Positions 10,841-54,332 of a stretch of 64,000 bases of DNA are shown piece by piece (the stretch's first letter is position 1; each line of letters opens with the position of its first letter). The DNA comes from Desulfocarbo indianensis. GTDB lineage: Bacteria; Desulfobacterota; Desulfarculia; Desulfarculales; Desulfarculaceae. The translations under genes were made by a program, and so were the position numbers. The stretch spans positions 124,001 to 188,000 of the forward strand of contig LBMP01000005.1 in assembly GCA_001184205.1 (NCBI GenBank), given 5' to 3'. Below the pieces are notes generated by a model. That model was not told the origin of the DNA, did no database searches, and was given only the letters and a program-made list of their open reading frames with translations.

Positions 10841-12826
<1,986 letters not shown>

Positions 12827-15543: not shown

Positions 15544-15641
15544 CCGGTTGGGGCCCTCCGTTAACCGGATATCGTGGGCGCGGGACAGGAGCCGTCCTTA
15601 GCGCAACCCTCACGGCTGCTCTCTCAGGTGGAGAGACAGCC
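15544..15641 (-). promoter_or_regulatory. Structured leader with two hairpins upstream of the small ORF and PPOX gene
   Basis: Two strong inverted repeats lie in the 525-nt gap 15277-15801: CCGGTT/AACCGG (15544-15549 with 15563-15568) and GGCTG.TCTCTC/GAGAGA.CAGCC (15614-15625 with 15631-15641, one bulged base). On the minus strand they sit in the leader of the small ORF and PPOX gene. On the plus strand the second stem is followed by a T-rich CTTTTCTTT and could be a terminator. AT-rich TAATAATAATAA lies at about 15526-15536. No known riboswitch motif was recognised, and the rest of the gap (15650-15801) shows nothing clear. Confidence 0.45.
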
Positions 15642-15801: not shown

Positions 15802-16539
15802 TCACAGGTTCAGGCGCTTGAAGATGGGCTCGGGCAGCGCCTTGATGATGAACATGATAAGCCGCCAGAAAGCGGGGGCGTAGACGACGTCCTTGCCCTT
15901 AAGCATAGCGCAATGGATTTTCTTGGCCACCGCCTCGGGCTTGGCCCACAGCAAGCCTTTTTTGAAGTGCGCGGTCATGGGGGAATCCACGAAGCCGGGC
16001 TTGATGGTGACCACCCGCACCCCGGCCCGGTGCAGCCGGTTGCGCAGGCCGGAGAGAAAAACCGAGAGCCCGCCCTTGGCCGTCCCGTAGATGTAATTGC
16101 TCTGCCGGCCCCGGTCGCCCGCCACCGAGGAGATGACGGCCAGGCAGCCGCCGCCCCTGGGCTCCAGGAGATTGGCCAGGATGGTGAGCAGGCTGATGGG
16201 GCTCAACAGGTTGGTGGTCAATTCGCCCTGGGCCACGGCGTAATCGGCCTGGCCCGCCGCCTGGTCGCCCAGGGAGCCGTGGGCGATGAGCGCGCCTTCC
16301 AGCCCCTCCAGGGCGGCGTCGGCGGCCGCGATCAGCTCCTGGTGGCGGCTGAAGTCGTTCAGATCCAGGGTCAGGCTTTCCACCTGGGCCGCGCCCCGCG
16401 CCTTCAGATCGGCGGCCACGTCGTCCAGCTTTTGTTGGTCGCGGCCGGCCAGAAACAGCCGGGACCCCTCGGCCGCGAAGAGGCGGGCCGTGGCCTGGGC
16501 CTGGGCGCTGCTTGCTCCGATGACGAGTACCTTGTTCAT
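15802..16539 (-). CDS. DprE2-like short-chain dehydrogenase (polyprenyl-P-ribose 2-keto reductase)
   Basis: The 245-residue SDR has an N-terminal nucleotide-binding fold (VLVIGASSAQAQATARLF), a Ser in VISSVAG and the catalytic YxxxK as YGTAK (about 156-160). By context it is DprE2-like. In mycobacteria DprE2 reduces the 2-keto intermediate made by DprE1, completing epimerisation of polyprenyl-phospho-ribose to the arabinose form. The dinucleotide loop has Ala/Ser where the classic GxxxGxG has Gly. The ATG at 16539 overlaps the DprE1-like stop by 4 bp (ATGA) and has GAGGGAG upstream. A longer upstream start lies inside the neighbour and was rejected. Confidence 0.82.
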   Translation of the reverse strand: MNKVLVIGASSAQAQATARLFAAEGSRLFLAGRDQQKLDDVAADLKARGAAQVESLTLDLNDFSRHQELIAAADAALEGLEGALIAHGSLGDQAAGQADYAVAQGELTTNLLSPISLLTILANLLEPRGGGCLAVISSVAGDRGRQSNYIYGTAKGGLSVFLSGLRNRLHRAGVRVVTIKPGFVDSPMTAHFKKGLLWAKPEAVAKKIHCAMLKGKDVVYAPAFWRLIMFIIKALPEPIFKRLNL

Positions 16540-17864
16540 GGCAGAAACTCCCTCTGGCCTTGGGTGACCCTGCGCCAGAAGCTGGAGGAAAACCTGGGGT
16601 CCACGTGCTTGGCCAATTCCGGCCAATTGGGATAAAACGCCTGGAAGTCATCGGCGCCCATGCAGGCGTCCTTGGCCGGATACAGGGCGCCCTCCGCCGC
16701 GCGGGTGACGGCGATGAGCTCCTTGAACAGGGCCAGGGTCTTGGGGCCCTTGAAGGCGAAATCCAGGGCGAAGGTGATGCCGGGGCGGGGAAAGGAGATC
16801 AGGCCCGGCGAGGGGGTGTCGCCGAAGGCCTTGATGACCGCCAGGAAGGAACCCGTTCCCGAGCGGGCGATCAGATCCAGCATGGCCCGCAGCGCCTCGC
16901 TTTGGCCAAAGGGCACCACGCACTGGAACTGCATCATGCCCTTGCGGCCGTAGATGCGGCTCCACTGGTCAATGGCGTCCAGGGGGTAGAGGAAGCCGGC
17001 GAAAGGCTGCACCGTTTTTTTGAGCCGCGGCCGTTGGCGATGATAATAGAGCAGGTTGAAGGCCCGCAGGGTCCAGGCGTTGAGCGCCCAGCCGGGCCAG
17101 TCAAAGGGCGCGCTGAGCAGGGCCCTGGGCCGCGCGTCGGCCTGGGGCCGCTCGCTGGGGCCGGGCATATGCTTGGCCCGCATGAACAGCCCCCGCCGGG
17201 GATTCTGGCGCGAAAGGGCGTCCAGCCAGGCCACGGTGTATTCCCAATGCTGGTCGGACTGGCGGCTCAGCTCCTCGAACTCCTCCAGGCCGTGGAACTT
17301 GATGGTCTCCACGGTCAGCTCCGGGCTGGAGAGCGGCTTGAGCTGTATTTCGGCCCAGGTGATGAGCCCGGTGAGCCCCATGCCGCCCACGGTGGCCGCG
17401 AAAAGCTCCGGGTTCCGGCTGGGCGAGCAGATCAGGCGCGCGCCGTCGGAGCGCAAAAGCTCCAGCCGCCGCACGTGCCGCCCGAAGGCCCCGGCCCGGT
17501 GGTGGTTCTTGCCGTGCACGTCATTGGCGATGGCCCCGCCCAGGGTTATCAGGCTGGTGCCCGGCGTGACCGGCAGGAACCAGCCGCCGGGAACCGCCAG
17601 GCCCAGTATCTCGGCCAGGGTCGCCCCGGCCTCGCAGGCCAGCACCCCCTGGTGCCGGTCGAAGCCGAGGAAGCGGTCCAGGCCGCGGCAATCGATCAGC
17701 CCGCCGCCGTGATTAAGGCACACGTCGCCGTAGGAGCGCCCCGCGCCGTAGGGCAGCGCCGTGGCGGGCAGACCGCTCAAATCCAATGAACGGGGACGCC
17801 AAAAGGGCCTTACGACCTCATGGCTGGCCCGGGTGTATCGTCCCCAGGATTGATAAGCTTCCAT
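16536..17864 (-). CDS. DprE1-like FAD-dependent polyprenyl-phospho-ribose 2-oxidase
   Basis: The 442-residue FAD oxidoreductase shows a DprE1 signature: GAGRSYGD (41-47), VTPGTSLITLGGAIANDVHG (99-118) then KNHH, and GGMGLTG (160-166). Near the C-terminus SFPRPG precedes a long substrate-loop region, and AKDA contains the conserved Lys (about 398). In mycobacteria DprE1 oxidises decaprenyl-phospho-ribose at C2. The position matching the benzothiazinone-trapping Cys387 appears to be Ala (about 366, TFALDF). The ATG at 17864 overlaps the HAD-UbiA stop by one base. Flanking genes supply the steps before and after. Confidence 0.85.
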   Translation of the reverse strand: MEAYQSWGRYTRASHEVVRPFWRPRSLDLSGLPATALPYGAGRSYGDVCLNHGGGLIDCRGLDRFLGFDRHQGVLACEAGATLAEILGLAVPGGWFLPVTPGTSLITLGGAIANDVHGKNHHRAGAFGRHVRRLELLRSDGARLICSPSRNPELFAATVGGMGLTGLITWAEIQLKPLSSPELTVETIKFHGLEEFEELSRQSDQHWEYTVAWLDALSRQNPRRGLFMRAKHMPGPSERPQADARPRALLSAPFDWPGWALNAWTLRAFNLLYYHRQRPRLKKTVQPFAGFLYPLDAIDQWSRIYGRKGMMQFQCVVPFGQSEALRAMLDLIARSGTGSFLAVIKAFGDTPSPGLISFPRPGITFALDFAFKGPKTLALFKELIAVTRAAEGALYPAKDACMGADDFQAFYPNWPELAKHVDPRFSSSFWRRVTQGQREFLP

Positions 17865-19315
17865 CAGACCGCCAGTATCAGGATTAACAAGGCCAAGCCG
17901 CCCACCACGTAGCTGGCCGGGTCCCTGATGGCGAAAAGCACCGGGTCGTCGTGCATCTCGCCGCGATGGGCCCGCAGCCATATCCGGCTGATCCAATAAA
18001 CCAGGAGCGGGCACACCAGCCAGAGCCAAACCGCGTGGTGGTACAGCGCCGTGACCTTGGGGCTGTTGAGGTAAAGCGCCACCACCAAGACCGCCAGGTA
18101 GCCGCTGGCCAGGCCGGCGGGCACCAGAAAGCCCTGATCGCTCTGGCGGTAGCCCCGCCCCGCCGGGTCATTGCCCTCCAGGGCCTTAAGCTCGGTGAAG
18201 CGCTTGACAAAGGCCAGACTCAAGAAAAAAAACGTGCTGAAGATCAATAGCCAAAAAGATATGGCCACCCCGGCCGCCGGCCCGCCGGCCAGGATGCGCA
18301 GGGTGTAGAGGCCGGCCAGCACCAATATGTCCAGGAGAGCCAGTTCCTTGATTTTGATGGAATAGGCGCTGGTCAATAAAAGATAGAGCGCCAAAAGCCA
18401 AAACACCTGACTGGACACCAGGCCGCCCAGGGCCAGGCCCACCGCCATGAGGGCGGGGATGAGGGCCAGCGCCATAATGAGCGGCATGTCGCCGGCGGCC
18501 AGGGCGCGGCGGCGCTTGCGGGGATGGCGGCGGTCGGAGGGCAGGTCCCAGAGATCGTTGGCCAGGTACACCGCCGAGGAGCACAGGCAAAAAGCCAGCA
18601 TGGCGGTCAGCACCCCCAGCCAGGCGGCCGCGTCGCCCACCTGGTGGGCCAGCACGATGGGCATGGCCAAGAGGACGTTCTTGGCCCATTGCCAGGGGCG
18701 CATGGCCTTGAGGGCCGTCCGCCAGGGCTCCTGGGGGCCGGGGTCCAGAACCTGGCAAGCCAGCCCCTCGGCCCTGGCCCGCCGCTCCACGCCCGGTTCG
18801 GGCCGCACCATATAGGCCCGGCGGCAACCCCGCCACACGGCCAGGTCGGCCGAGGAATTGCCCAAATAGTCGAAGCCGCCGGCGCCGAAGCGCTCTTCCA
18901 GGGCCCGCCGCTTGTTGGCGCCGCTCAAGTTGTACTTGCCGTCGCTGGCCATTATCTGGTCAAAGACGCCCAGGTGATCGGCCACCAGGCGCGCGGTGGA
19001 CTGGTCCGAGCCGGTCACCAAGATCAGGGGGCGGCCCGCCTCCTTTTGGGCGGCCATGAATTCCAGCACCCTGGGATTGTAGGGCAAATGAGCCGGCTCC
19101 ACCGGGTGGGCCTGGGAGACCCGCTCCTTGTACAAGGCGCGGCTCTGGCTTCCCCACTTAAGCAGCCTGGCAAGGGCCCAGGGTTTGGCCTTGAGAAAAG
19201 CGAGGGTGCCCTCGAACAAGGTATCGGCCTGGACCAGGGTGCCGTCCAGGTCCACACAGAGCGGCGTGTGATCAACGCTGATGACGTCTTCTGCCACAAC
19301 CTCCCCCGGCTTCAA
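17864..19315 (-). CDS. HAD phosphatase - UbiA polyprenyl-P phosphoribosyltransferase fusion
   Basis: This 483-residue two-domain protein has an N-terminal HAD phosphatase (about 15-200) with DLDGTL, LVTGSD, ANKRRAL and FDYLGNSSADL. The C-terminal UbiA-type membrane domain (about 205-483, eight to nine TM helices) has the Asp-rich NDLWDLPSDRRHPRKRRRAL and YSIKIKE motifs, like 5-phosphoribosyl-1-phosphate:decaprenyl-phosphate transferase. Inference: the UbiA domain joins PRPP to polyprenyl phosphate and the HAD domain removes the 5'-phosphate, giving the substrate of the next gene (DprE1-like). It is first in an operon of three overlapping genes. Confidence 0.85.
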   Translation of the reverse strand: MKPGEVVAEDVISVDHTPLCVDLDGTLVQADTLFEGTLAFLKAKPWALARLLKWGSQSRALYKERVSQAHPVEPAHLPYNPRVLEFMAAQKEAGRPLILVTGSDQSTARLVADHLGVFDQIMASDGKYNLSGANKRRALEERFGAGGFDYLGNSSADLAVWRGCRRAYMVRPEPGVERRARAEGLACQVLDPGPQEPWRTALKAMRPWQWAKNVLLAMPIVLAHQVGDAAAWLGVLTAMLAFCLCSSAVYLANDLWDLPSDRRHPRKRRRALAAGDMPLIMALALIPALMAVGLALGGLVSSQVFWLLALYLLLTSAYSIKIKELALLDILVLAGLYTLRILAGGPAAGVAISFWLLIFSTFFFLSLAFVKRFTELKALEGNDPAGRGYRQSDQGFLVPAGLASGYLAVLVVALYLNSPKVTALYHHAVWLWLVCPLLVYWISRIWLRAHRGEMHDDPVLFAIRDPASYVVGGLALLILILAV

Positions 19316-19321
19316 ATTGAC

Positions 19322-19344
19322 GGGCGGGGCAAAGAACCCCGCCC
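19322..19344 (-). terminator. GC-rich hairpin between the aldolase gene and the HAD-UbiA operon
   Basis: A perfect 8-bp stem GGGCGGGG/CCCCGCCC (19322-19329, 19337-19344) with a 7-nt loop lies 28 nt past the aldolase stop and before the HAD-UbiA start. On the minus strand it is followed by GTCAATTT, a weak U-tract, so it is a likely terminator or attenuator. Confidence 0.6.
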
Positions 19345-19372
19345 GGTCTTTAAACCAGCTTCTTGAATAAGA

Positions 19373-20767
19373 CTAGTCGTCAAAGTCGCCCTTGGGGCCC
19401 TTGTCCGGAGTCAGGACGGCGCCCTTGGCCCGGATGGTTTTTTCGGTCCACTGGGCCTTTTTCTCGATGCGCTTGGCCTTGGGCCCCAGGTTGTAGGAGC
19501 CGGCCTTCAAGATGGCCTTGACGCCCAGGGGGGCGGTGTCCTTGGCGTTGAACACCTTGGTCAGAAGCCCGTAGATGAAATCCGCCACCGCCTTTTCCGA
19601 GCGGTCGCGAATCTTCTTGGGCTGGGACATGATCTTGTTCTCGAAGGGCAGGTTGAGCTTCTTGTAGTTGCCGCCCTTCCAGCCCTGCTGGTCGGCGTAG
19701 GCCACCATCTCCGCCCAAAGCTCCTGGCTCACGCCGCTGTCGGGCAGCTTCAGGAAATCACCCTTCTTGTCCAGCTCGGCGTTGCCGTAGTCGTTGACCT
19801 TCACGCCCCAGGTGATCATCTGCAGGGCGGTGGCCACGTTGGCCTTGGTGGTAAGCGTCTCCTTGGCGATGCGCCGCAGCCGGTCCGAATCATTGCCCGA
19901 GGTGCCGTGCTGGGCGCCGGACACCACGTAGGGCTTCAAGGCCTCATGTATCTCGGCGGTGAGCTCCACCTGGATGCCCTGCTCGGAGGTCTGGATGCCG
20001 TGGGCGGTGCCGTTGTTAAGAGCGATCCAATCGGGGAAGATGCCGTGGGCGTTGAGGCCCTGAATCAGGAACAGGGCTTCCGGCACCGTGGAAAGGCCCT
20101 CCTTGCCCTTGATCTCGCCCACCTCGGTCTCCAGACCGGCCCATTTGGGCACGTAGCGGTTCAGCTCGATGCTGGCCAGCAGGTTCTCCGCGTCGGGCAG
20201 GTGGGAGGCGTCGATGGCGATGGAGGTGATGCCGGCCTCGAACATGGAGGGAATCTCCACCCGGGCGGTCTCCACGTCCTTGGGCCCCTTGATGCCGTAA
20301 TGATCGGCGTGCACCGCCACCGGCACCGTGATGCCCAGCTCGTTCATGGCCTGGTCCACTCGGCGGGCCATGTTCCAATAATTGGTGGCGCAATAGGAAC
20401 TGGCTCCGCCCTCGCTCTTGGCTATCTCGATGATGAGGGCCGCGTTGGCCCGCTGGGCTGCCTTCAAGGCGCCGCGGATCACCAGATAATTGCGCCCGTT
20501 GGCCGCGATGGTCATGGCCTGGCCCTTGGCCAGAAGCGCCCGGTCGATGACCTTGCCGCTCACGATGAGGGCCTTGGAGTTGGGGAAAAGCTTCTTGATG
20601 TTGGGCGGCCGGCCGATGGCCAGGGCCTTTTCGAATTCCTTGGCCGTGATTTTCACCGGCTTGGCCTTGGCAGCCGGCTTGGCCTTGACTGTCTTTTTGG
20701 GCTTGGCGGCCGGTTTGGCCTTGGCGGTTTTGGTTTTCTTAGCAGGCTTGGCGGTTTTGGCTGCCAT
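19373..20767 (-). CDS. Class II fructose-bisphosphate aldolase-family protein with Lys/Ala-rich tail
   Basis: The 464-residue protein has an aldolase core at about 45-464 with the metal-site HADHYG, AIDASHLPDAENL, ETEVGEIKGKEG, LNNGTAHG and SGAQHGTSGND. It probably cleaves or forms fructose-1,6-bisphosphate or a related ketose bisphosphate in glycolysis or gluconeogenesis. Residues 1-40 are a run of Ala-Lys-Pro repeats (AAKTAKPAKKTKTAKAKPAA), like histone H1 or nucleoid tails and unusual for this enzyme. The ATG has GAGAGG upstream. A sigma-70 promoter is at 20833-20862 and a hairpin follows the gene, so it is likely monocistronic. Confidence 0.85.
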   Translation of the reverse strand: MAAKTAKPAKKTKTAKAKPAAKPKKTVKAKPAAKAKPVKITAKEFEKALAIGRPPNIKKLFPNSKALIVSGKVIDRALLAKGQAMTIAANGRNYLVIRGALKAAQRANAALIIEIAKSEGGASSYCATNYWNMARRVDQAMNELGITVPVAVHADHYGIKGPKDVETARVEIPSMFEAGITSIAIDASHLPDAENLLASIELNRYVPKWAGLETEVGEIKGKEGLSTVPEALFLIQGLNAHGIFPDWIALNNGTAHGIQTSEQGIQVELTAEIHEALKPYVVSGAQHGTSGNDSDRLRRIAKETLTTKANVATALQMITWGVKVNDYGNAELDKKGDFLKLPDSGVSQELWAEMVAYADQQGWKGGNYKKLNLPFENKIMSQPKKIRDRSEKAVADFIYGLLTKVFNAKDTAPLGVKAILKAGSYNLGPKAKRIEKKAQWTEKTIRAKGAVLTPDKGPKGDFDD

Positions 20768-20832
20768 GGTCTTGGTTCCTCTCCGTCCAGTATGTAAATA
20801 AGCCTGGGCTAACCGTTATTTCTTAACAAATT

Positions 20833-20862
20833 ATTGTAACGCTTTTAAACGGATTGATTCAA
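20833..20862 (-). promoter_or_regulatory. Sigma-70-type promoter for the aldolase gene
   Basis: On the minus strand TTGAAT (20862-20857), an 18-bp spacer and TACAAT (20838-20833) lie about 65 nt before the aldolase ATG, in an AT-rich stretch. Confidence 0.6.
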
Positions 20863-20890
20863 TGCCCAGCCCCGGTTCTTTCCGAGCTCG

Positions 20891-21298
20891 CTACCTGGTG
20901 CGGAAGCTGACCAGATAAGGCACCGCCGGCCTTCCCTTGAGGTCCCGGAAATTCTGAAAACGATCCGAGTTGACCCATATCTGGTAAGTCTTGTTGCCAG
21001 TCAGGCTGACCGGCGCCACAAAGGTGCGCCCGTCCTCCAGGAAGCCAGCCTCGCCGGTTATCTGCGGAAAGCTGTCCTTGTCCATCTTCACCAAGGAGTA
21101 GCCATCGGGCTGCATGGGCTTGGAAAAGGTGATGCGGATTTCCTTCAGGTTGGGGTCCACGTTGGCGTCGCCCACCCTGGGCGAGGTGGCCACCACCACC
21201 GGCCGCTGGTCCTCCAGTTTGGCCTCGCCCGCCGCGGCCGGAGTAAATGCCGGCCAAAGCAGGGCCGCCGCCAGAATCATCAAAGCGAAATATTTCAT
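20891..21298 (-). CDS. Secreted Ig-like (Big_5/SbsA-type) domain protein
   Basis: This 135-residue protein has a signal peptide (about 1-23, ending AAAGEAK) and one bacterial Ig-like domain. The pattern VVATSPRVGDANVDPNLKEI, then ITFSKPM, ... GLxxxxTYQIWVNSDRF and a terminal PYLVSFRT strand is typical of Big_5/SbsA Ig modules. It is probably a small periplasmic or surface protein, and no catalytic residue is visible. The ATG at 21298 has AAGGGA upstream. It is last in the aldolase/dehydrogenase operon, 56 nt after the dehydrogenase. Confidence 0.75.
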   Translation of the reverse strand: MKYFALMILAAALLWPAFTPAAAGEAKLEDQRPVVVATSPRVGDANVDPNLKEIRITFSKPMQPDGYSLVKMDKDSFPQITGEAGFLEDGRTFVAPVSLTGNKTYQIWVNSDRFQNFRDLKGRPAVPYLVSFRTR

Positions 21299-21354
21299 GA
21301 TGCGGTTTCCCTTTGCATGTTGAATCGGTTTACCGCGGGCGTCCGGTCCGCGGT

Positions 21355-22407
21355 TCAGCCTTGCGGCAAGATTATCACCTTGAGCGAGTCGTGCTCCATG
21401 GGCTGGGCCACGGCGCTGAAGCCGGCCTGGGCCTCTTCCAGGCTCAGGCGATGGGTTATCATTTTTTCCACCGGCACCGCGCCGCCGGCGATGAGCCTGA
21501 GGGCCTGGGCGCAATCGGCCGGCGCGCCGGCGTAGGAGCTGGTGAGCGTCACCTCGCTGCGCCAGAAGATATCGTTGATGGGCTTGGCGATTTGGGCGCC
21601 CTCGGCCGCGCCGGCGAAAAAGAGCACCGTGCCGCCCCGCTCCACGCAGTCCAGGGCCAGGGGGATGAATCCCTCGAAGCCGATGATGACCAGGTCGGCC
21701 TTCAGGCCCTGGTTGGCGGCCTTGAGCTCCTCCGGCAGATAAGGCCCCGCCTCCAGGGCCAGATGCGCGCCCAGTTCCCTGGCCTTTTTCAGGCGGAAGG
21801 GAATGGTGTCCGCCGCGATCACCAGCCCGGCCCCCAGGCTGCGGGCCAGGGCGATGTGCATGAGCCCGGAGATGCCGGCCCCCAGCATGAGCACGGTCTG
21901 CCCCGGCCGGATGCCGGCCAGCTTCTGGCCCCGCAGCACGCAGGCCAGGGGCTCCATGAAACTGGCCGCCTCGAAGGACATGCCGTCGGGCATGGCAAAC
22001 GAGCCCCGGTCCACGTTGATGGCCGGCACCAGCAGGTATTCGGCGAACCCGCCGGGATGGAAATGGGTTTTCTTGAGCAGGGTCTCGCACATGGTGTGGT
22101 GGCCGCTCAGGCAGTAGTGGCAGGTGTTGCAGGGCACGTGATGGGTCACCGCCACCCGGTCGCCGGGCTTGAATCTCTCCACCCCTGGCCCGGTTTCGCT
22201 CACCACCCCGGCCACCTCGTGGCCCAGGACCAGGGGCACCTTGTCCCGGCGGTACCATTCCATCACGTCCGAGCCGCAGATGCCGCTGGCCATGACCTTG
22301 AGCGCCATCTCGCCGGGCCCGGGCGCGGGCCTTGGCATGGTCTGGCAGCGCACGTCGCTGTTGGAGTAATACATGCAGACTTTCATGTCGCCGGTCCCGC
22401 CGCCCAT
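21355..22407 (-). CDS. Zinc-dependent alcohol dehydrogenase (MDR family)
   Basis: The 350-residue medium-chain dehydrogenase has the catalytic Zn site GICGSDVMEWY and GHEVAGVV (about 43-72). The structural Zn site has four Cys between VPCNTCHYC and HTMC (about 100-116), and the Rossmann loop is VLMLGAGISGLMHI (about 180). It resembles sorbitol/threonine dehydrogenase-type enzymes and probably oxidises a sugar alcohol or hydroxyketone with NAD(P). The start at 22407 is supported by GGGGAGG 8 nt upstream; a second ATG 21 nt in is possible. It sits 16 nt after the LsrF-like gene. Confidence 0.88.
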   Translation of the reverse strand: MGGGTGDMKVCMYYSNSDVRCQTMPRPAPGPGEMALKVMASGICGSDVMEWYRRDKVPLVLGHEVAGVVSETGPGVERFKPGDRVAVTHHVPCNTCHYCLSGHHTMCETLLKKTHFHPGGFAEYLLVPAINVDRGSFAMPDGMSFEAASFMEPLACVLRGQKLAGIRPGQTVLMLGAGISGLMHIALARSLGAGLVIAADTIPFRLKKARELGAHLALEAGPYLPEELKAANQGLKADLVIIGFEGFIPLALDCVERGGTVLFFAGAAEGAQIAKPINDIFWRSEVTLTSSYAGAPADCAQALRLIAGGAVPVEKMITHRLSLEEAQAGFSAVAQPMEHDSLKVIILPQG

Positions 22408-22423
22408 GGCATCCGCCTCCCCT

Positions 22424-23317
22424 TTAGGCTTGACTGAGCTCGCGGAACATCTCCTGGGCCTCCTTGGGTTTGGCCCCGGAATGGACCACCGAGTTCAAGG
22501 CGCGCATCATGGCCAGCGGGTGGGGGTTCTGCCACACGTTGCGGCCCAGGTTCACGCCGATGGCGCCCTTTTGCATGCCGTCGTACACGAACTCGAACAC
22601 CTCCAGCTCGGTCTCGCACTTGGGGCCGCCGGCCATCACCACCGGCACCGGGCAGCCGTGGATCACCTTCTCGAAGCCCTCCTCGCAGTAATAGGTCTTG
22701 ACCACCTTGGCCCCCAGCTCGGCCGCGATGCGGCAGCCCAGGGCCAGATAGCGGGAGGTGCGCTTTTCCAGTTCCTTGCCCACCGCGGTCACCGCCATCA
22801 CCGGGATGCCGTAATCCTCGCAGTCGCTCACCAGCTCGGCCAGGTTCTCCAGGGTCTGGCGCTCGTAGGGGGTGCCCACGAAAATGGATATCCCCACCGC
22901 GGCCACGTTGAGCCGGATCATCTCCTCCACGGAAACCGTGATGATTTCATCGGCCAGATCCTCGCCCACCACCGAGCTGCCGCCCGACACCCTGAGGATG
23001 ATGGGGGTGGCGATGTCCGGGCTCACGCAGGAGCGCAGCACGCCCCTGGTCACGAACAGGCCGTCGGCATAGGGCAAGAGCTCGCGGATGGTTTCGCCGG
23101 GGCATTCCAGGCAGCGGGTGGGCCCCTGGAAATAACCGTGGTCGATGGGCAGGAATTGGGTGTGGCCGTCGGCCCCGATGAGGCGCGACAAACGGTTGCG
23201 CATGCCCCAGTCCAGATAGCTGGAGCCCTTCAATGGCTTGCCCGGCCCCATGGAGCAGGCGCCGGCGGGCATTTCGTTCACTTCTCTGGCTTCCAAGATT
23301 CCTTCGGCATCGGGCAT
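22424..23317 (-). CDS. LsrF-like class I aldolase/thiolase
   Basis: This 297-residue TIM-barrel protein is close to E. coli LsrF, which transfers an acetyl group from phosphorylated AI-2 (P-HPD) to CoA. Shared stretches are LDWGMRNRLSRL, PIDHGYFQGPT, TRGVLRS, MAVTAVGKE, VVKTYYCEEGFE (with the presumed Schiff-base Lys), PVPVVMAGG and GVNLGRNVWQ. The N-terminus has an extra 25 or so residues. No lsrABCDK/R genes are seen near, and the partners are a class II aldolase-cupin fusion and a dehydrogenase. It may therefore serve a different C5-ketose-type pathway. The ATG has AAGGAG upstream. Confidence 0.85.
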   Translation of the reverse strand: MPDAEGILEAREVNEMPAGACSMGPGKPLKGSSYLDWGMRNRLSRLIGADGHTQFLPIDHGYFQGPTRCLECPGETIRELLPYADGLFVTRGVLRSCVSPDIATPIILRVSGGSSVVGEDLADEIITVSVEEMIRLNVAAVGISIFVGTPYERQTLENLAELVSDCEDYGIPVMAVTAVGKELEKRTSRYLALGCRIAAELGAKVVKTYYCEEGFEKVIHGCPVPVVMAGGPKCETELEVFEFVYDGMQKGAIGVNLGRNVWQNPHPLAMMRALNSVVHSGAKPKEAQEMFRELSQA

Positions 23318-23335
23318 GAGTGAAGCTCCTTGGCT

Positions 23336-24394
23336 TTAAAAAACAAAAGGCACGTCGTCTTCCGGGTCGTAGGGACGATCGGTGAATTCCACGAAAACCA
23401 GGGTATCGGGCCCCGGCGCGGTTATGCGGTGGGCCACCCCCGGCGGCAGCCACAGGCGGTCGCCGGGCTCCTGCTCCAGGGTGAGCCTTTCCCCGGTCTC
23501 CGCGCAGGCCAGTTCCACCATGGCGCGGCCCGCCACCACGTAGAAGCCCTCGTGCTTGTGGCGGTGCAGATGCCCGCCGCGGTGGCCCGCGCCGGGATTC
23601 AAGCTGAGCACGCCCAGACGGCACAGGTCGCGGTTGTCGATTATCAAATGGGCTTCGCCCCTGTGGTCGCGCCAGCGCTTTTCCGTGGCGAACTCCCGCT
23701 TCAGGTCGAGATGCTTTAGTTCGATGCGGCGGTCCAGGGGAGGCAGCGACCCCAGCAGCGCGGCCGGCGCGTGGCCGCCCATGGCCAGGAGCTTTTCCTG
23801 CTCCTCCGGGGGCAGGGCCCGCGCGCCGCCCAGGGACTTGGCCGCCAGGATGACCTGGGCGGCGCTCTCGATTTTCTCGGTGCGCACCCAGGCGGTCTCC
23901 AGATCCGGGCCGTGGGCCAGGGTGCCGTGGTGGCCCAGAAGCAGGGCGGCGTGTCCCCGCAGATAGGGCCGCACCGCCTCGGCCAGGTCTTCCCCGCCGG
24001 GCGTGGCGTAGGGCACGGTGGGCACCTGGCCCAGATGCACCAGGGCCTCGGGCAGGCCGCTTAAATCCAGCTCGCGGTTGGCCAGGCTGAAGGCGGTGGC
24101 CAGGGGCGGATGGGCGTGCACCACCGCGTTGGCCTCGGGCAGGCTTTGATACACCGCCAGATGCATGGGCAGCTCGGCGCTGGGCTTGCCTCCGCCCGCC
24201 AGCGGCCGCCCCTCCAGGTCCACCTCCACCAGGTCCTGGGCCTGGAGCAGGGCCTTGCTGCGGCCCGCCGGGGTGATCAGCAGGCGGTCCTCGCCCAAAC
24301 GCAGGGAAACGTTGCCGTCGGTGGCGGATAAAAAGCCCCGTCGCCAGCCCAGCCGGCAGACCTCGACCATGAGTTCGCGCGCCTGTCGGCTCAT
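23336..24394 (-). CDS. Class II aldolase (FucA/AraD type) - cupin fusion
   Basis: The 352-residue protein has an N-terminal FucA/AraD aldolase-type domain (about 1-215) with TDGNVSLR, ITPAGRSK, the metal pair HAHPP (about 93-95) and GHHGTLAHG (about 150). The C-terminal cupin (about 220-352) has GHLHRHKHEGFYVVAGRAMV and PPGVAHRI. The aldolase probably cleaves a sugar phosphate, and the cupin may isomerise or bind the same sugar. The two are normally separate proteins. The ATG overlaps the stop of the upstream gene by 4 bp; it is followed 18 nt later by the LsrF-like gene. Confidence 0.83.
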   Translation of the reverse strand: MSRQARELMVEVCRLGWRRGFLSATDGNVSLRLGEDRLLITPAGRSKALLQAQDLVEVDLEGRPLAGGGKPSAELPMHLAVYQSLPEANAVVHAHPPLATAFSLANRELDLSGLPEALVHLGQVPTVPYATPGGEDLAEAVRPYLRGHAALLLGHHGTLAHGPDLETAWVRTEKIESAAQVILAAKSLGGARALPPEEQEKLLAMGGHAPAALLGSLPPLDRRIELKHLDLKREFATEKRWRDHRGEAHLIIDNRDLCRLGVLSLNPGAGHRGGHLHRHKHEGFYVVAGRAMVELACAETGERLTLEQEPGDRLWLPPGVAHRITAPGPDTLVFVEFTDRPYDPEDDVPFVF

Positions 24395-29126: not shown

Positions 29127-29392
29127 CCGGCCGTGCATCCCGCTTCGAGCCAGCGCCAAAAGACAACGGCCAACCCCCACGCCGCAAACCGGGACGCTCC
29201 GCGACACGAACCGCATCGCTTACCGCTGCTTCCTCCCGGACCTGACGGGTTTCACGACCGTCCGTCACGCGGTGTCCGGCAGGGGTAAGGGAGGCGCGCC
29301 TTCTCCGACGCTGGGCCCTGGGCGGGCCTTCGACCCCGCATAAGCGGATTTCGGGAAAAGGGCACCGCTGGCTCCCCGTCTAGCACGACCGG
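29127..29392 (-). ncRNA. ffs: Signal recognition particle RNA, large type with Alu-like domain
   Basis: On the minus strand the universal S-domain core GTCAGGTCC.GGAGGAAGCAGC lies at 29246-29225 (plus strand shows GCTGCTTCCTCCCGGACC). The 5' end begins about 29390 with GTGCTAGACGGGGAGCCAGC and GGTGCCC...CCGCTTATGCGGGGTCGAA, which match the Alu-domain half of the Bacillus-type RNA. The 3' end GCACGGCC (29136-29129) pairs with the 5' GGTCGTGC. Total length is about 265 nt, not the 100-nt 4.5S form. A weak promoter-like TTGCGT...TATCGA lies just upstream. It binds Ffh for membrane targeting; Ffh is not in the window. Confidence 0.85.
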
Positions 29393-36455: not shown

Positions 36456-37832
36456 GTGAAGCTGAGCGTAGTGATCAATCTGGCAGTTTTATGCTTTCGC
36501 CGGCCGGTCGAGGCTGTGGGCGGCGGGCGTCTCCTCGCGCTGCCGCTGGCGGTTTTTCTCCTGGCGGGGCCGTATTGCCTCCCCGCCTGGGCCGCTTTCA
36601 AATTCACGCCATTCGTTCGCGTGGAATCGGGCTTCGACGATAACGTCCGGCTCACCCAGGAGGCCAGGAGCGATTTCTACGTCACCGCCAATCCCGGCTT
36701 TTCCCTGGATTGGCAGGAGCCCACCAGCCAGCTGCGCCTTGCCGGCGACCTGCGCTACTCGGAGTATTACCGCCTTTCCGAATACACCCAGGTCGAAGGC
36801 GGCAACGCCTCGCTTGTCTGGGACTATATGCCCTCCCCCCGCTGGAAGTTCCAGGTTTACGACAAATATTCCTCCACTTTCGACCCGCCGGAAGTGGACG
36901 AACAGGGCCGCCTGATCTTGGTGCGGGGGGACAGCGGGAGGCGCGACAGCAATACGGCCGGCGCGCAGGTCAGGCACAATTTCAGCCGGGACGATTACGT
37001 GGCGGCGGAAATGCGGACCAGTCAAACCTCCTACAGCGAAGAAGAGGTGGAGGACTCGCGCAACCATTATTTCACATTTTCCGGGGCCCACCGCCTCAAC
37101 GTCGACTGGCGGACGGAAGCCGAGGGCTTTTGGTCCCACAGCGATTATGAACGCAGCGATGACACCAACTACCTGGGAGGCTCCGCCTCCCTGGTCCGCG
37201 CCCTGGGGCCCACCATGGAGGCCATGCTCACCCTGGGCTATACCGAGATCAAAACCATAACCGACGATCCCTTCCTGCGGCAAAGCAGGGACTACAAAAC
37301 CTACCGGGCCGGCTTCGGTTTCGCGCACAAGGTTTCGCCGACTTTCCGTTGGGACGCCTCCGCCGGCTGGGCCTACGTGGACGCCGACAGAGAGGCCAAT
37401 CAGGCGGCCGGCGACACGCAACCCGTTTTTTCGGCCTCCGCCTCATGGAACGGCCAGCGCTGGCAATTGAACGCCGACGTGTTCAGTTCCCTGGGCGAGC
37501 AGGAATTGGTGGGTGAAAATTTAGGCTTGACCATATCCCACGGCATGGGCGTCAACTATACCTATGAACTGTCCAAACACTGGAAGTTTTCCGTAAACGC
37601 GGCCTACGTTTTCAACGATTACAAACAAAACGCCATGAGAACCGGGTTGCAGTCCGGCGGAGACGTGGAATCCATCATGGCGGGCATGGCGCTGTCCTGG
37701 CAATTCGCCAAGCGCGCCAGCCTGGTCCTTGATTACCGCTACCTGAGCCGGGATTCCGAAGACGACCAGGACGACCGCGAGCAGAACCGCATATTCCTAA
37801 CCTTGATTTACGAGCATCCATATAGGTGGTGA
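36456..37832 (+). CDS. Outer-membrane beta-barrel protein of the exosortase/EPS system
   Basis: The 458-residue protein has a signal sequence (about 1-47, ending PAWAAF) and then a long series of amphipathic strands rich in aromatic and Tyr/Trp residues (LRLAGDLRYSEYYRLSEYTQ, WKFSVNAAYVFNDY). It ends in YRW, typical of a beta-barrel terminus. Similar proteins accompany exosortase EPS loci and are presumed outer-membrane channels. The GTG start lacks a strong SD. It starts 30 nt after the export gene. Confidence 0.8.
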   Translation: MKLSVVINLAVLCFRRPVEAVGGGRLLALPLAVFLLAGPYCLPAWAAFKFTPFVRVESGFDDNVRLTQEARSDFYVTANPGFSLDWQEPTSQLRLAGDLRYSEYYRLSEYTQVEGGNASLVWDYMPSPRWKFQVYDKYSSTFDPPEVDEQGRLILVRGDSGRRDSNTAGAQVRHNFSRDDYVAAEMRTSQTSYSEEEVEDSRNHYFTFSGAHRLNVDWRTEAEGFWSHSDYERSDDTNYLGGSASLVRALGPTMEAMLTLGYTEIKTITDDPFLRQSRDYKTYRAGFGFAHKVSPTFRWDASAGWAYVDADREANQAAGDTQPVFSASASWNGQRWQLNADVFSSLGEQELVGENLGLTISHGMGVNYTYELSKHWKFSVNAAYVFNDYKQNAMRTGLQSGGDVESIMAGMALSWQFAKRASLVLDYRYLSRDSEDDQDDREQNRIFLTLIYEHPYRW

Positions 37833-37833
37833 C

Positions 37834-39471
37834 ATGCCGCAACAGGCGGGCACGATAGACCTTCGCAAATATCTTTTCATCCTGCGCCGGCGCTGGGCGT
37901 TGTGCCTGGCCGTGTTCCTGGTGGTTCTCGCCGCCGGCATCGCCTATTGCCTGTTCTGGCCGCGGGTGTACGAGGCCACCGCCCTGGTGGTGGTGCAGCC
38001 CCAAAAGGTGCCCGGCACCATCGTGGCCCCCACCGTCACCTCCAAGATGGAAGAGCGCCTGCAGATAATCACCCAGCAGGTGCTGAGCAGGACCCGGCTG
38101 ATGGAGATCATAGAGCGTTTCGATCTCTATCCCGAGGCGCGCCACAAGGCGGTGCCGGACGACATGGCCGAGCGCATGCGCAAGGACATCTCCATCAAGA
38201 TCACCCGCCAGCATTATTTCACGGTGAGCTTCATCTACCGGGAGCCCAAGGCCGCGGCGACCGTGGCCAACGCCTTGGCCGCCTTCTACGTGGACAGCAA
38301 CCTGCGGCTCCGCGAAGACGACGCGGTGGGCACCGCCCGCTTCCTGGCGCGCGAAATGGAGCGCATGCGCGGGCAGTTGAAGGAATGGGAAAACAAGCTC
38401 ACCGATTTCAAGAAGGCGCACCTGAACGAATTGCCCGGTTCCCAGGACAGGCTTTTGGCCATCGCCTCGCGGCAGCAGGACGCCATCGCGAAAATCGACT
38501 TTCACGTCGAAATCGAGCGCACCAGGCAAAACGGCCTTGAATTCGAAATCGCGGACCTGACCTTCACCATCGAAGACGTGGCCCTGAAAAAGGCGCAAAT
38601 GATGAAACGGGGCGAGGCCGTGGGAGCGGGCGACGATCTGGCCGGCGATGACCCCGCTCCCATCCGCCAGGAACTGGAATCCATGCTGGTGCGCTACACG
38701 GACGATCATCCGGACGTGATCAGGTTGAAAAAGCGCCTGGCCATCGCCGAGGCCCGCCATGAGGCGAAAATCGCCAAACTCAGAGCCGAGGGCAAGATCA
38801 AAGATGGCGAAGAAAATATGGACAGCACCGAGCTGCAACTGGGATCATTGAAGGAAAGCCGCACCAAGTACGCCAAATTGGTGGCCGAGTCAAAGGAAAG
38901 GGTCAAGGCCTTGCAGGCTGAACGGGTGAACGTGGAAACAGCCCTGACGCAGACCCGGCGTTACATCCAAAACATGCCCGCCGTGGCCGAGCGCCTGCAG
39001 GAGCTTTCCAGGGGTTACGACACCCTGAACCAGGCCTATGAAAACCTCCACGCCAAATGGCTGGAAGCCAATATCTCCGCCAACCTGGAACGCACCCAGC
39101 GCGGCGAGCAATTCGAGGTGGTGGACCCGGCCGAGGTGCCCAGCTCCCCCTACCAGCCCAACGTCAAAAAGGCGCTGCCCCTTTCCATCGCCTTGGCCCT
39201 GGGCCTGGCCGTGGGGCTCGCTTTCGGCCTGAGCTACATCGATACGTCGTTCACCTCGGTGGAACAAGCCGAGCGCGCCAGCGAGCTGCCGGTCCTGGTG
39301 GTGCTGCCGCCTTTGTTCACCCAGGAGGAGCAGGAGCGCAAGAAACGCCGCCTCATGACGCTGATCGCGGTTTACGCGAGCTGCGGATTCGTGTTGCTGG
39401 CGCTGATGGGATTATTAATGACGGGCCGCGCCGAATCGCTGAAACGGCTGGCTTCCAACCTATTCAACTAG
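37834..39471 (+). CDS. Wzz/GNVR-type polysaccharide chain-length determinant
   Basis: The 545-residue inner-membrane regulator has TM1 at about 21-42 and TM2 at about 440-465, with a long coiled-coil periplasmic part between (YFTVSFIYREP, LKEWENKLTDFKKAH). The Pro/Gly motif before TM2 (PSSPYQPNVKKALPLSI) is family-like. A third hydrophobic segment (about 500-525) sits at the C-terminus. It sets EPS chain length and is thought to work with the CpsD-like kinase at 40931. It begins 1 nt after the previous stop. Confidence 0.92.
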   Translation: MPQQAGTIDLRKYLFILRRRWALCLAVFLVVLAAGIAYCLFWPRVYEATALVVVQPQKVPGTIVAPTVTSKMEERLQIITQQVLSRTRLMEIIERFDLYPEARHKAVPDDMAERMRKDISIKITRQHYFTVSFIYREPKAAATVANALAAFYVDSNLRLREDDAVGTARFLAREMERMRGQLKEWENKLTDFKKAHLNELPGSQDRLLAIASRQQDAIAKIDFHVEIERTRQNGLEFEIADLTFTIEDVALKKAQMMKRGEAVGAGDDLAGDDPAPIRQELESMLVRYTDDHPDVIRLKKRLAIAEARHEAKIAKLRAEGKIKDGEENMDSTELQLGSLKESRTKYAKLVAESKERVKALQAERVNVETALTQTRRYIQNMPAVAERLQELSRGYDTLNQAYENLHAKWLEANISANLERTQRGEQFEVVDPAEVPSSPYQPNVKKALPLSIALALGLAVGLAFGLSYIDTSFTSVEQAERASELPVLVVLPPLFTQEEQERKKRRLMTLIAVYASCGFVLLALMGLLMTGRAESLKRLASNLFN

Positions 39472-39495
39472 CAGCCCAGGGAGCGAGGTCGTCCC

Positions 39496-40938
39496 TTGTA
39501 CACCGGATTCTTTCATCTTCGCGAATTGCCCTTCGCCCTGGAGCCGGACTCCCGGTTCCTGGTCCTGGCTGAAGAGCACAAAGAAGCCCTGGTCACCTTG
39601 ATCTACGCCATTGAGCAGCGGGAAGGCTGGGCCCTGCTTTTGGGCGACGCGGGGGTGGGCAAGACCACCCTGATCATGGCGCTCTTGCGCGAACTGGGCG
39701 AAGTGGTGATACCGGCGGTCATCACCAATCCGCTTTTGGAACCCTTGGATTTCTTCAATCTGGCGGCCCTGGAGCTGGGCATGGACGGCCCCTACGCCAG
39801 CAAGGGCCAATTCCTCATCGCCCTGGGACAGGTCATCAATCAATGCCGCCAGGACAACAAGGTGCTGCTCTTGGTGATCGACGAGGCCCACAGCCTCACG
39901 CCGCGTCTCCTGGAGGAGCTGCGCCTGCTGGGCAACCTGGACGGCGCCTCGCCCAGGGTTCTGAACATATTCCTGGTGGGTCAGCCCAAGGTTTTGCTGC
40001 TCATGAAAAAGGCCGGCGCGCGCGGCCTCATGCAGAGGCTCCACCGGCATTATCTTTTAAAGGCATTGTCATCCGACGACACCGCCAGCTATGTGCGCCA
40101 CCGCCTGGAAATCGCCGGCGGAACCAAGGAAATCTTCAACGCCGAAGCCTTGCGGGAAGTGCATCGTCTCACCGGAGGCAATCCGCGCCTGATCAACTCC
40201 CTGTGCGATGAAAGCCTGATCCTGGCCTTCAGCCAGAACAAGCATCACGTCGACGGGGATATGGTCCGGCAGGCCGGGGAGCACGATGCGTCCCTGCGAT
40301 GGTCGGAGCCCGCCGCGCCGCTTTCCCAGCCCGAGGAGCCCGCGCCGGCCAGGCCAGCCGTGGAGGAGAAGCCGGCGGTCCCGGAGGAGCCCCCGGCGCC
40401 GGAGCCCGCGGGCATGGCGGCGGAACCGAGACCGGTACCGCCCCTCAGGGAAAGCAGGCCGTTCCCGGCCAGGCCGGAGCCCCCCGCCCGGGAGTTGGAT
40501 GATTCCCTGGAGGCGGTCCTCAAACCGCCCCGGGGCGGTAAACAGGCCGCCGCCAAGCCGGCCAAGGAGCGCAGGGCCGGCCTGGGTACCCGCTTCGCCT
40601 CCAGCCTCTCCAAGAAGAGCCGGGGCGGCCTCTGGCGGCGTCTCCTGTTCCTGATCTTCATTCTGCTGATCATCGGCATCGTCTACCTGCTGAGCAGCCA
40701 GGACGGGCTGCGCCAGGCTAAAAGGTGGTGGTGGATCATAAAAGGCCGGCCGGGGCCGGAGCTGTATCTGCCGGGCGAAGGCAACCAGCCGGTCAGACGG
40801 GATCGATCCCGCTCCACCCAGCAGCCGGACGCCGGCGAAACGGACTGGGGCCCCAAGGTCCTGGCTCCCGCGCCCAAGGCGGCCTCCGAATCGCCGGGCG
40901 GAGAGGCTCCCAGGCGGCAAGGAGATCAAAATGGGTAA
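39496..40938 (+). CDS. ExeA/GspA-type AAA ATPase of the exosortase locus
   Basis: The 480-residue protein has an N-terminal AAA domain with Walker A GDAGVGKTT (about 49-57), Walker B VLLLVIDEAH (about 124-133) and sensor motifs (LVGQPK). A Pro-rich linker, then a single TM (about 382-402), and a periplasmic tail follow. This arrangement fits ATPases linked to EPS and peptidoglycan transport. The TTG start has GAGCGAGG upstream. It overlaps the kinase gene by 8 nt. Confidence 0.88.
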   Translation: MYTGFFHLRELPFALEPDSRFLVLAEEHKEALVTLIYAIEQREGWALLLGDAGVGKTTLIMALLRELGEVVIPAVITNPLLEPLDFFNLAALELGMDGPYASKGQFLIALGQVINQCRQDNKVLLLVIDEAHSLTPRLLEELRLLGNLDGASPRVLNIFLVGQPKVLLLMKKAGARGLMQRLHRHYLLKALSSDDTASYVRHRLEIAGGTKEIFNAEALREVHRLTGGNPRLINSLCDESLILAFSQNKHHVDGDMVRQAGEHDASLRWSEPAAPLSQPEEPAPARPAVEEKPAVPEEPPAPEPAGMAAEPRPVPPLRESRPFPARPEPPARELDDSLEAVLKPPRGGKQAAAKPAKERRAGLGTRFASSLSKKSRGGLWRRLLFLIFILLIIGIVYLLSSQDGLRQAKRWWWIIKGRPGPELYLPGEGNQPVRRDRSRSTQQPDAGETDWGPKVLAPAPKAASESPGGEAPRRQGDQNG

Positions 40939-41857
40939 GATGAGCGACCTCATGGAGCGGGGAGGCCGCCGTCTGGAGCAAGAGGCCCAGCAAACCGGCC
41001 AGAGGGAGCCTTCTCCCCAACCCGCCGCCTCCGGAATTCTAAGGGCCAGGCGGGAGCCCCGCCCGGCGCCGGATGCGCCGTCCAAGGCGGCGCGGCCCGC
41101 CGTGGCCAGGGAAACCGCCAAGGCCTTTGTGCAGCAGCCCACTTTCGATCCCCGCCAGTGGAACGATCCGGACCACGAACGCCTGGCCAGCCTGTGGGCC
41201 CCCAACAGCCCGCAAGGCAAGCGCATCGACATCCTGCGCTCGCAACTGCTCTATCCCTTCCACGGCGAACCGCCCCGCACCATACTGGTCACCAGCGCGG
41301 TGCCCAGGGAAGGCAAGAGCCTCCTGATCAGCAACCTGGCCATCTCCTTTGCCCGGGGGATGCAGCAGTTCGTCATGGTGATTGACTGCCACATCATGGA
41401 GCCGCGCATCCACGAGCTATTGGGAGTGCCCCTCCAGCCGGGGCTGTCGGATTACTTGGAAGGCCAGGCCACGGTGCCGGAGATCATGCATTGGACCCAA
41501 ATCGAGCGGCTGTCGGTCATTCCCGCCGGCTCGCCCTCCAAGCTCTCGGCCGAGCTCCTGGCCACGGACCGCATGGGCGCCCTGGTGGACGAGCTGCGCG
41601 CGCGCTACCACGACCGCTACATGCTCCTGGATACGCCTTCGGTGCAGGCTTTCGACGACCCGGCGGTGATCGCGCGCAAGGCCGAGGGCATCGTGTTCGT
41701 GGTGCAAAGCGGCACCACCGACCGCGATGAAGTGTTGCGCGCCCTGTCCCGCCTGCCCGAGGAAAAGCTGGTGGGCATCGTGCTGAACGACAAACTCTCC
41801 ACCGTGGCCGACGCCAGTTCGGTGGCCTCTCCCCAGGAAAGGGAGAACGGGGCCTGA
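40931..41857 (+). CDS. CpsD/CapB-like P-loop kinase of the EPS system (degenerate Walker A')
   Basis: The 308-residue cytoplasmic protein has a disordered N-terminus, then Walker A SAVPREGKSLLISNLA (about 122-137), Walker A' VIDCHIMEP (about 152-160), and Walker B MLLDTPSV (about 232). BY-kinases normally have a D-x-D-L-R-x-P motif and a Tyr-rich tail. Here the second Asp is His, Arg is Glu, and there is no Tyr cluster, so autokinase activity is doubtful. It probably partners the chain-length determinant. It ends one base before the sugar transferase. Confidence 0.87.
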   Translation: MGKMSDLMERGGRRLEQEAQQTGQREPSPQPAASGILRARREPRPAPDAPSKAARPAVARETAKAFVQQPTFDPRQWNDPDHERLASLWAPNSPQGKRIDILRSQLLYPFHGEPPRTILVTSAVPREGKSLLISNLAISFARGMQQFVMVIDCHIMEPRIHELLGVPLQPGLSDYLEGQATVPEIMHWTQIERLSVIPAGSPSKLSAELLATDRMGALVDELRARYHDRYMLLDTPSVQAFDDPAVIARKAEGIVFVVQSGTTDRDEVLRALSRLPEEKLVGIVLNDKLSTVADASSVASPQERENGA

Positions 41858-43293
41858 TGCTGGCTTCCTCCAGCCGTCCCTCGCCCTATCAACTCCTGTT
41901 CCTGGCGGGTGAGTTCCTGTTAATGGGCGCGGGGGTGCTGCTGGCCCTCATCATCAGGCTGCCGGACCCCGCCACGGAATTGTTCACCTGGAAATACTCC
42001 TGGCACCGGGTGGTGCTGGTGCCCATGGTGCTGCAGATTTCCTTCTACTATTTCGACCTGCACAACTTCCGCATCGCCCGTCCCTTCGCCTGGACCATGA
42101 CCCGCCTGGTGCAGGCCCTTTCGGTGGGCGTCTTGGTATTGGCCGTCGTCTATTACATCCTGCCCCGCCTTTTCCTGGGCCGCGGGGTGCTGTTCCTGGT
42201 GTTCGTCAACGTGTTTTTTTTGTGCCTCTTCTGGCGGGGCGTCTACTCCTGGGCCTTAAGGCATAATCTTTTCTCCACCCGCATCCTGCTGGTGGGCAGG
42301 GGCTCCCTGGCCGACTCCATAGCCGAAGAGCTTCTGGCCAGGTCCGACAACGCCTACAAGGTCGCATGCATACTGTGCCCCGGCGATGAGGAACCGCTGC
42401 CGGAGAGCAACGAAGCCCAGGAAGTCGAGTTGATGCGCGCCTGGGGCGGGCTTCTCAAGTGCGATGTGCGCTTTGACGTGGGCGAGCTGATGGGCCTGAT
42501 CCGCTATTACAGCGCGGAGCTTATCGTGGTGGCGCTGGACGAGCGGCGGGGGCGCATGCCGCTGGGCGAGCTGCTGCGGGCCCGCATGCAGGGCCTGCCG
42601 GTGATGGCCGGCGAGGATTTCTTCGAGACCATAGGCGGCCGCATCCTGGCCGAGCGCATAAAGACCAGTTGGCTGGTCTTTTCGCCGGGCTTCACCACCA
42701 ACGCCCTGCGCCGCTTCAGCAAACGCGCCTTTGATATGGGCTTGAGCTTTGTGGGGCTGCTCTTGAGCCTGCCCCTGTCTATGCTTACGGCGGTGGCCGT
42801 GCGCCTGGACAGCGCGGGGCCCATCATCTACCGCCAGGAACGGGTGGGCCAATACGGCGCCACTTTCACCATGTACAAGTTCCGTTCCATGCAGGTCGAC
42901 GCGGAGGCCCAATCCGGCCCGGTGTGGGCGAAGGAAGACGACGCCAGGGTGACCAGGGTGGGCAGGTTCATCCGCAAGACCCGGCTGGATGAAATCCCCC
43001 AGATGTGGAACGTGCTCAAGGGCGACATGAGCTTCGTCGGCCCCCGGCCGGAAAGGCCCCATTTCGTGGCCTCCCTGGCCCAAGCCCTGCCTTTTTACGG
43101 CGAGCGGCACAACGTCAAACCGGGCATCACCGGCTGGGCCCAGGTCTGCTATCCCTATGGTTCCAGCCAGGCCGCCGCCCTGGAGAAGCTCAATTACGAC
43201 CTCTACTACATCAAGTATTCCAGCCTGAGCATGGACCTGCTCATCCTCATACAAACCTTCAGGCTGCTCTTTTTCGGGGGAGGCGGAAGATGA
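41857..43293 (+). CDS. Undecaprenyl-phosphate sugar-phosphotransferase (polyisoprenyl-P hexose-1-P transferase)
   Basis: The 478-residue initiating glycosyltransferase has four N-terminal TM segments, a Rossmann-like loop (about 140-270), a fifth TM (about 290-312), and a C-terminal catalytic domain. This has the PglC-like motif YRQERVGQYGATFTMYKFRS, TRLDEIPQMWNVLKGDMSFV, GPRPERPHF and GITGWAQVCYPYG. It starts EPS repeats on lipid carrier; sugar is likely a hexose. The ATG overlaps the kinase stop and its own stop overlaps exosortase (ATGA). UppP at 30144 recycles the same carrier. Confidence 0.94.
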   Translation: MLASSSRPSPYQLLFLAGEFLLMGAGVLLALIIRLPDPATELFTWKYSWHRVVLVPMVLQISFYYFDLHNFRIARPFAWTMTRLVQALSVGVLVLAVVYYILPRLFLGRGVLFLVFVNVFFLCLFWRGVYSWALRHNLFSTRILLVGRGSLADSIAEELLARSDNAYKVACILCPGDEEPLPESNEAQEVELMRAWGGLLKCDVRFDVGELMGLIRYYSAELIVVALDERRGRMPLGELLRARMQGLPVMAGEDFFETIGGRILAERIKTSWLVFSPGFTTNALRRFSKRAFDMGLSFVGLLLSLPLSMLTAVAVRLDSAGPIIYRQERVGQYGATFTMYKFRSMQVDAEAQSGPVWAKEDDARVTRVGRFIRKTRLDEIPQMWNVLKGDMSFVGPRPERPHFVASLAQALPFYGERHNVKPGITGWAQVCYPYGSSQAAALEKLNYDLYYIKYSSLSMDLLILIQTFRLLFFGGGGR

Positions 43294-44835: not shown

Positions 44836-44855
44836 TCCAACGGGGGCGTTGAGTT

Positions 44856-46112: not shown

Positions 46113-46126
46113 TAGGGAGAGGGTAC

Positions 46127-52345: not shown

Positions 52346-52378
52346 GCATCCCAGCGTGCCAAAGGAGCCGGCAACGCC

Positions 52379-54330: not shown

Positions 54331-54332
54331 CT

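Follow-up and report, generated by a model that had tools for sequence, protein, structure and literature searches.

A HAD-UbiA, DprE1-like and DprE2-like operon of Desulfocarbo indianensis and a candidate pentofuranosyltransferase family at a second locus

Which lipid-linked sugar is supplied by three overlapping minus-strand genes in a 64,000-nucleotide stretch of Desulfocarbo indianensis DNA (contig LBMP01000005.1, positions 124,001 to 188,000; the window), and which enzyme uses that sugar? The genes encode a HAD-UbiA fusion protein, a DprE1-like oxidase and a DprE2-like reductase. As judged from sequence, the product of the operon is very probably a lipid-linked donor, polyprenyl (undecaprenyl)-phosphate-D-arabinofuranose. 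The full reading, to which we assign a probability of about 45%, pairs this donor operon with a family of proposed pentofuranosyltransferases that lacks a Pfam or NCBIfam model as well as a solved relative. In it, two loci 49 kb apart would together place D-arabinofuranose (D-Araf) on a surface glycan or protein not yet characterised. The gene set is real, chemically well interpreted and of an already known type.

Operon proteins and proposed donor route

An earlier interpretation made from the DNA letters, the sequence-only reading, described three genes with overlaps of 1 and 4 bases, and the start and stop codons read on the sequence agree with it. The stop codon of the fusion gene (TGA, 17866-17864) shares base 17864 with the start codon of the DprE1-like gene (ATG, 17864-17862), and the stop codon of the latter (TGA, 16538-16536) overlaps the start codon of the DprE2-like gene (ATG, 16539-16537) over 16536-16539. 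The longer open reading frames of the program-made list are upstream extensions of genes of 483 or 477, 442 and 245 amino acids. The fusion has two possible starts, TTG at 19315 (483 residues) and GTG at 19297 (477 residues, with GGGGGAGG before the GTG).

The fusion scored 600 bits against the NCBIfam model NF006088 (cut-off 351 bits), a full-length match over profile positions 9-480 of 482. Its closest solved relative is the Mycobacterium tuberculosis decaprenylphosphoryl-5-phosphoribose (DPPR) synthase (8j8j, 8.4e-26). The earlier description of an N-terminal HAD domain joined to a UbiA domain is correct. In a structure model built from only four sequences (mean pLDDT 74), 281 residues aligned with 8j8j (Z 26.9; root-mean-square deviation 2.9), and residues 14-192 matched HAD phosphatases. 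The HAD motifs are intact (DLDGT with the nucleophile Asp, Thr of motif II, Lys of motif III and the acidic residue of motif IV), as are those of the UbiA domain, NDLWDLPSD and the loop-IV KRFTE. The fusion thus keeps the residues of NDxxDxxxD and of the loop-IV R..E that had been probed by mutation in ORF15 of Citrobacter youngae (PMC11127046). ORF15 is itself a HAD-UbiA fusion, shown biochemically to convert phosphoribosyl pyrophosphate (PRPP) to polyprenyl-phosphate-ribofuranose; its HAD domain removes the 5'-phosphate, and the D18A variant gives a ribose-5-phosphate product (Kelly et al. 2024, PMC11127046). By homology and motifs, the D. indianensis fusion is predicted to be a polyprenyl-phosphoribose synthase of the NF006088/ORF15 type. 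The proposal that its HAD domain is the 5'-phosphatase, so that one protein performs two steps, is supported and has been published for the same architecture.

The closest solved relatives of the other two proteins are M. tuberculosis DprE1 and DprE2, the next solved short-chain dehydrogenase/reductase (SDR) matching the DprE2-like protein at 8e-17. The DprE1-like protein matches the Pfam family FAD_binding_4 (3e-14) and keeps the FAD fold, GRSYGD, HGKNHH (the HGK motif) and a C-terminal Lys equivalent to K418 of M. tuberculosis. The DprE2-like protein matches adh_short (7.6e-28), scores above the cut-off of NF005489, an unnamed SDR model (319.7 vs 267), and keeps the SDR fold and YxxxK. Homologous fusions were compared as the sequence-only reading had proposed, and the catalytic motifs of the operon proteins, including those of the HAD and UbiA domains, are conserved over the collected homologs; the HAD Gly shows isolated exceptions. 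The position of M. tuberculosis DprE1 Cys387 is Ala in the window's DprE1-like protein and in all eight homologs that cover it. Cys387 is the residue bound by benzothiazinones, an inhibitor site and not a catalytic one, and the Ala may interest users of DprE1 inhibitors.

The proposed route would reach the donor in four steps. First, the UbiA domain would join PRPP and undecaprenyl phosphate to give undecaprenyl-phosphate-ribose-5-phosphate. Secondly, the fused HAD domain would strip the 5'-phosphate and leave undecaprenyl-phosphate-ribose. Third, the DprE1-like flavoenzyme would oxidise C2' to a 2'-keto intermediate. Lastly, the DprE2-like SDR would reduce this intermediate with inversion to undecaprenyl-phosphate-D-Araf. 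The donor would then be flipped, and a GT-C glycosyltransferase would transfer its sugar onto a surface glycan or glycoprotein. The four donor steps are predicted from homology to enzymes that have been characterised, and flipping and transfer are proposed from gene linkage in other species. Support for the donor route comes from the family, solved-structure and motif matches, the fold, the translational overlaps, the conserved gene set and the ORF15 biochemistry (PMC11127046). The sequence-only reading called the route complete, which holds for the donor and not beyond it.

Candidate transferase and flippase

The operon of Rhizobium sophoriradicis encodes two GT-C-like proteins after DprE2, and a profile of this pair was used as query. 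It gave one match in the D. indianensis genome, at C279:192360-193946 (E 1.4e-50). The matched protein is 24-27% identical to the pair over about 520 residues and has no match in Pfam or NCBIfam; the family profile found none among PDB sequences up to E 1. The family is called unmodelled as judged by Pfam, NCBIfam and PDB. Its putative GT-C class rests on membrane topology and a GQxPxxDF pattern near the N-terminus, not on a model match. The Asp of this pattern is among the invariant residues and, as in other GT-Cs, may be the catalytic base.

The family is linked to the fusion in other bacteria. Of 72,556 plasmids, 32 match the family, and in all 32 a HAD-UbiA gene lies 4.0-5.8 kb away. In the phylum sample, where few candidates were scored per genome, two of 297 genomes match, that of D. 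indianensis and one with a weak match. The chances are slightly better than even that the C279 GT-C uses the operon's donor. GT4, GT2 and MATE/Wzx-like genes stand beside the GT-C gene, divergently, and the MATE/Wzx-type protein, 49-54 kb from the operon with the GT-C, is tentatively put forward as the donor flippase.

Within the reach of the PMT_2 and operon-linked GT-C searches, the earlier statement that the window encodes no arabinosyltransferase is correct: none of the 15 PMT_2 matches of the genome, and no match to the operon-linked family, falls inside it. A genome search for GT-C arabinosyltransferases, also proposed there, yielded the C279 candidate and no transferase of the Emb type. 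The Emb-type family PF04602 had no match in the D. indianensis genome and matched the Corynebacterium glutamicum control, so an Emb-type enzyme was rejected as the donor user. Two further queries were rejected as well. The GT-C from an operon of the same family (G262) had no match in the D. indianensis genome at E 0.001, and that from G014 gave weak generic matches only (5.8e-8 and 1.9e-6).

Alternative readings

Several points weigh against a donor operon that works with the C279 locus. First, the DprE1-like protein scored 326.8 bits on NF053785, below the curated equivalog cut-off of 500, and the DprE2-like protein 191.5 bits on NF053786, below the cut-off of 250, which is why both names carry "-like". 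Secondly, the candidate GT-C and flippase genes are separate from the operon, and the genome encodes 15 other PMT_2-type proteins. Third, Rhizobium accounts for 30 of the 32 linked plasmids, so the independent linkage evidence amounts to three genera. Lastly, the candidate flippase matches MATE only weakly and may instead serve the adjoining GT4 and GT2 genes as an ordinary Wzx.

The donor may be used by a GT-C or flippase elsewhere in the genome, for instance any of the 15 PMT_2 proteins or the lone GtrA, with the C279 GT-C having another role; we regard this as plausible without being likely. GtrA is the flippase type within most related operons, the sole GtrA gene here (C222:488307) lies near GT-C genes, and the operon-linked GT-Cs of G262 and G014 fall in other groups. 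However, this GtrA gene directly follows a GT2 gene and therefore more likely belongs to a typical GtrB-type hexose donor pair, and it was rejected as the operon's partner. Moreover, the C279 GT-C is the only one whose family is linked with HAD-UbiA genes of other genera.

The operon may also supply polyprenyl-phosphate-ribofuranose or another 2'-modified pentofuranose, its redox pair having a different specificity, which is unlikely. Ribose donors are plausible for the fusion family because related fusions occur without neighbouring DprE homologs (L037, L038, L041, L042, L047, L079 and L085), and the scores below the DprE cut-offs are consistent with them. Among solved proteins, however, DprE1 and DprE2 are the nearest to the redox pair, which retains their catalytic residues and shows translational coupling to the fusion. 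Kelly et al. also report DprE1 and DprE2 homologs in the systems that they propose for glycans with Araf, and further candidate systems, for glycans of unknown kind, in many species (PMC11127046). It is very improbable that the UbiA domain is an ordinary quinone or lipid prenyltransferase beside HAD and redox genes of unrelated metabolism: the UbiA superfamily is broad and the genome encodes two further UbiA proteins, but the PRPP enzyme 8j8j outranks quinone and lipid UbiA enzymes by both sequence and fold, the NF006088 match is full-length and the operon is conserved in distant taxa.

Genomic setting and comparison with known systems

The fusion is above the cut-off in 9 of the 297 genomes sampled in the phylum and in 4 of 20 genomes of the family. 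It matches 73 of the plasmid records at E 1e-30 or better, mostly from alphaproteobacteria. Annotated plasmid loci have the order HAD-UbiA, GtrA, FAD oxidoreductase, SDR and hypothetical membrane protein, with shorter versions elsewhere, and the operon is present in alpha- and betaproteobacteria, in many cases together with genes for GtrA and a GT-C. A search of genome contigs with the fusion found a single full homolog, from Rubrivivax, and three matches in actinobacteria to the UbiA part only. In a tree the window's fusion clusters with two proteins from its own family (support 99/98). A recent foreign origin by composition was rejected; the GC content of the operon, overall and at third codon positions, matches that of its neighbours. 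In a same-family genome (L042:9445-11291) a fusion gene is accompanied by a convergent GtrA gene, with no DprE homolog within the 19 kb covered, possibly a ribose-only version.

The operon lies between an aldolase-family gene and a PPOX-family gene. Three relatives (G089, G304 and G307) also have the conserved aldolase-family gene, with a small gene after it and the PPOX-family gene next. The three-gene unit fills this interval in the window, and it is therefore accessory at the site, the three relatives having the small gene instead. The aldolase-family gene (19373-20767) is present in 18 of the 20 family genomes and is part of a minus-strand run of genes (19373-24394). The run, which may be a sugar-phosphate pathway, includes genes for two aldolase-family proteins, a zinc dehydrogenase and a class II aldolase-cupin fusion. 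A hairpin separates this gene from the fusion and is not among the terminators listed by a terminator scan (Table 1). An imperfect inverted repeat (GGCTGTCTCTC / GAGAGAGCAGCC, 15612-15641, minus strand) lies in the 480 bp between the 3' end of the operon and the next gene, and an Rfam search of this intergenic stretch found no match.

Table 1. Features of the operon, its surroundings and the candidate partner locus (positions without a prefix are those of the window)
Feature	Position	Strand	Support or remark
HAD-UbiA fusion, predicted polyprenyl-phosphoribose synthase and 5'-phosphatase, ORF15 type	17864..19315	-	NF006088, 8j8j, fold Z 26.9
HAD phosphatase domain, residues 16-191	18743..19270	-	PF12710 3.2e-10, motifs, structural matches
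UbiA domain, residues 197-483, NDxxDxxxD and KR..E	17867..18727	-	PF01040 3.6e-23, motifs, 8j8j
DprE1-like FAD oxidase, 442 aa	16536..17864	-	M. tuberculosis DprE1 2.9e-65; GRSYGD, HGKNHH and catalytic-Lys motifs
DprE2-like SDR reductase, 245 aa	15802..16539	-	M. tuberculosis DprE2 8.7e-35; YxxxK
Perfect 9-bp GC hairpin CGGGCGGGG-TTCTTTG-CCCCGCCCG, weak T tail	19321..19345	-	read on sequence
Candidate GT-C	C279:192348-194189		4.3 kb past the window's right end, ~49 kb from operon
MATE/Wzx-type protein	C279:196419-197921		2.2 kb from candidate GT-C; weak model match
96-98 aa gene (MFVVILTYTKPL..) in relatives	L107:2833-3123, L109:2934-3230, L121:556-846		between aldolase-family and PPOX genes

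The window also contains an exosortase/PEP-CTERM-associated exopolysaccharide cluster (36456-55523), with genes for an XrtA-type chain-length protein, an ATPase, a tyrosine kinase, an EpsB-type glycosyltransferase, EpsI, an O-ligase-like and a PrsT-like protein. This cluster is a possible source of the acceptor glycan, and the product of the GT4 and GT2 genes beside the GT-C is a second possible candidate, both without a tie to arabinose. The undescribed arabinosylated or ribosylated envelope glycan that the sequence-only reading deduced is possible. Two other features were noted. A tandem array of 10.3 copies of an 18-bp unit (12548-12732, 99% identity) encodes EPTAPA repeats close to the N-terminal end of the product of a ribosomal-protein-S1-like gene (10841-12826, minus strand), and a bacterial large signal recognition particle RNA (116.6 bits) lies at 29131-29388 on the minus strand.

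The donor route is already established, so the presence of the operon here is not surprising. The view that an arabinose donor is unusual for a Gram-negative bacterium is contradicted by D-Araf on the pilin of P. paraeruginosa (PMC12369383), by rhizobial Nod factors, whose D-Araf is made via noeCHOP/noeCNHOP (PMC5080398, PMC2443382), and by O antigens (PMC11127046), as well as by the operon on many proteobacterial plasmids. The earlier inferences of a HAD phosphatase and of a Gram-negative arabinose donor are sound yet not new, because they are already published. The new part is that the operon's partners in other bacteria indicate the unmodelled GT-C family as a likely D-arabinofuranosyl- or pentofuranosyltransferase. 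Through this link the transferase step is testable in genetically tractable Rhizobium, and the family is the part worth following.

Like C. youngae ORF15, the fusion has HAD then UbiA in one chain with the same catalytic motifs, and a PRPP-based lipid donor is expected. In the ORF15 system a MATE flippase and then a GT-C (GT136) act after the synthase (PMC11127046), and the same partner types are proposed here. Unlike in C. youngae, where the donors are ribose for O1 and xylose for O2, the DprE1-like and DprE2-like genes point to an arabinose branch, and the GT-C and flippase genes are away from the synthase. The same four chemical steps are expected as in the mycobacterial decaprenylphosphoryl arabinose pathway (Rv3806c, Rv3807c, DprE1, DprE2 and Emb), whose enzymes are the closest solved relatives of all the operon proteins, the phosphatase excepted. 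In contrast to that pathway, the phosphatase here is a fused HAD domain and not Rv3807c, the genome has no Emb-type transferase, and Ala replaces DprE1 Cys387. NoeCHOP/NoeCNHOP and the P. paraeruginosa pilin cluster are likewise Gram-negative D-Araf donor routes with homologous enzymes, but their acceptors differ and their phosphatase is a separate protein. The plasmid operons of Rhizobium, Paracoccus and Tateyamaria share the three genes, their order and the GT-C family, with GtrA and the GT-C inside the operon there and outside it in D. indianensis.

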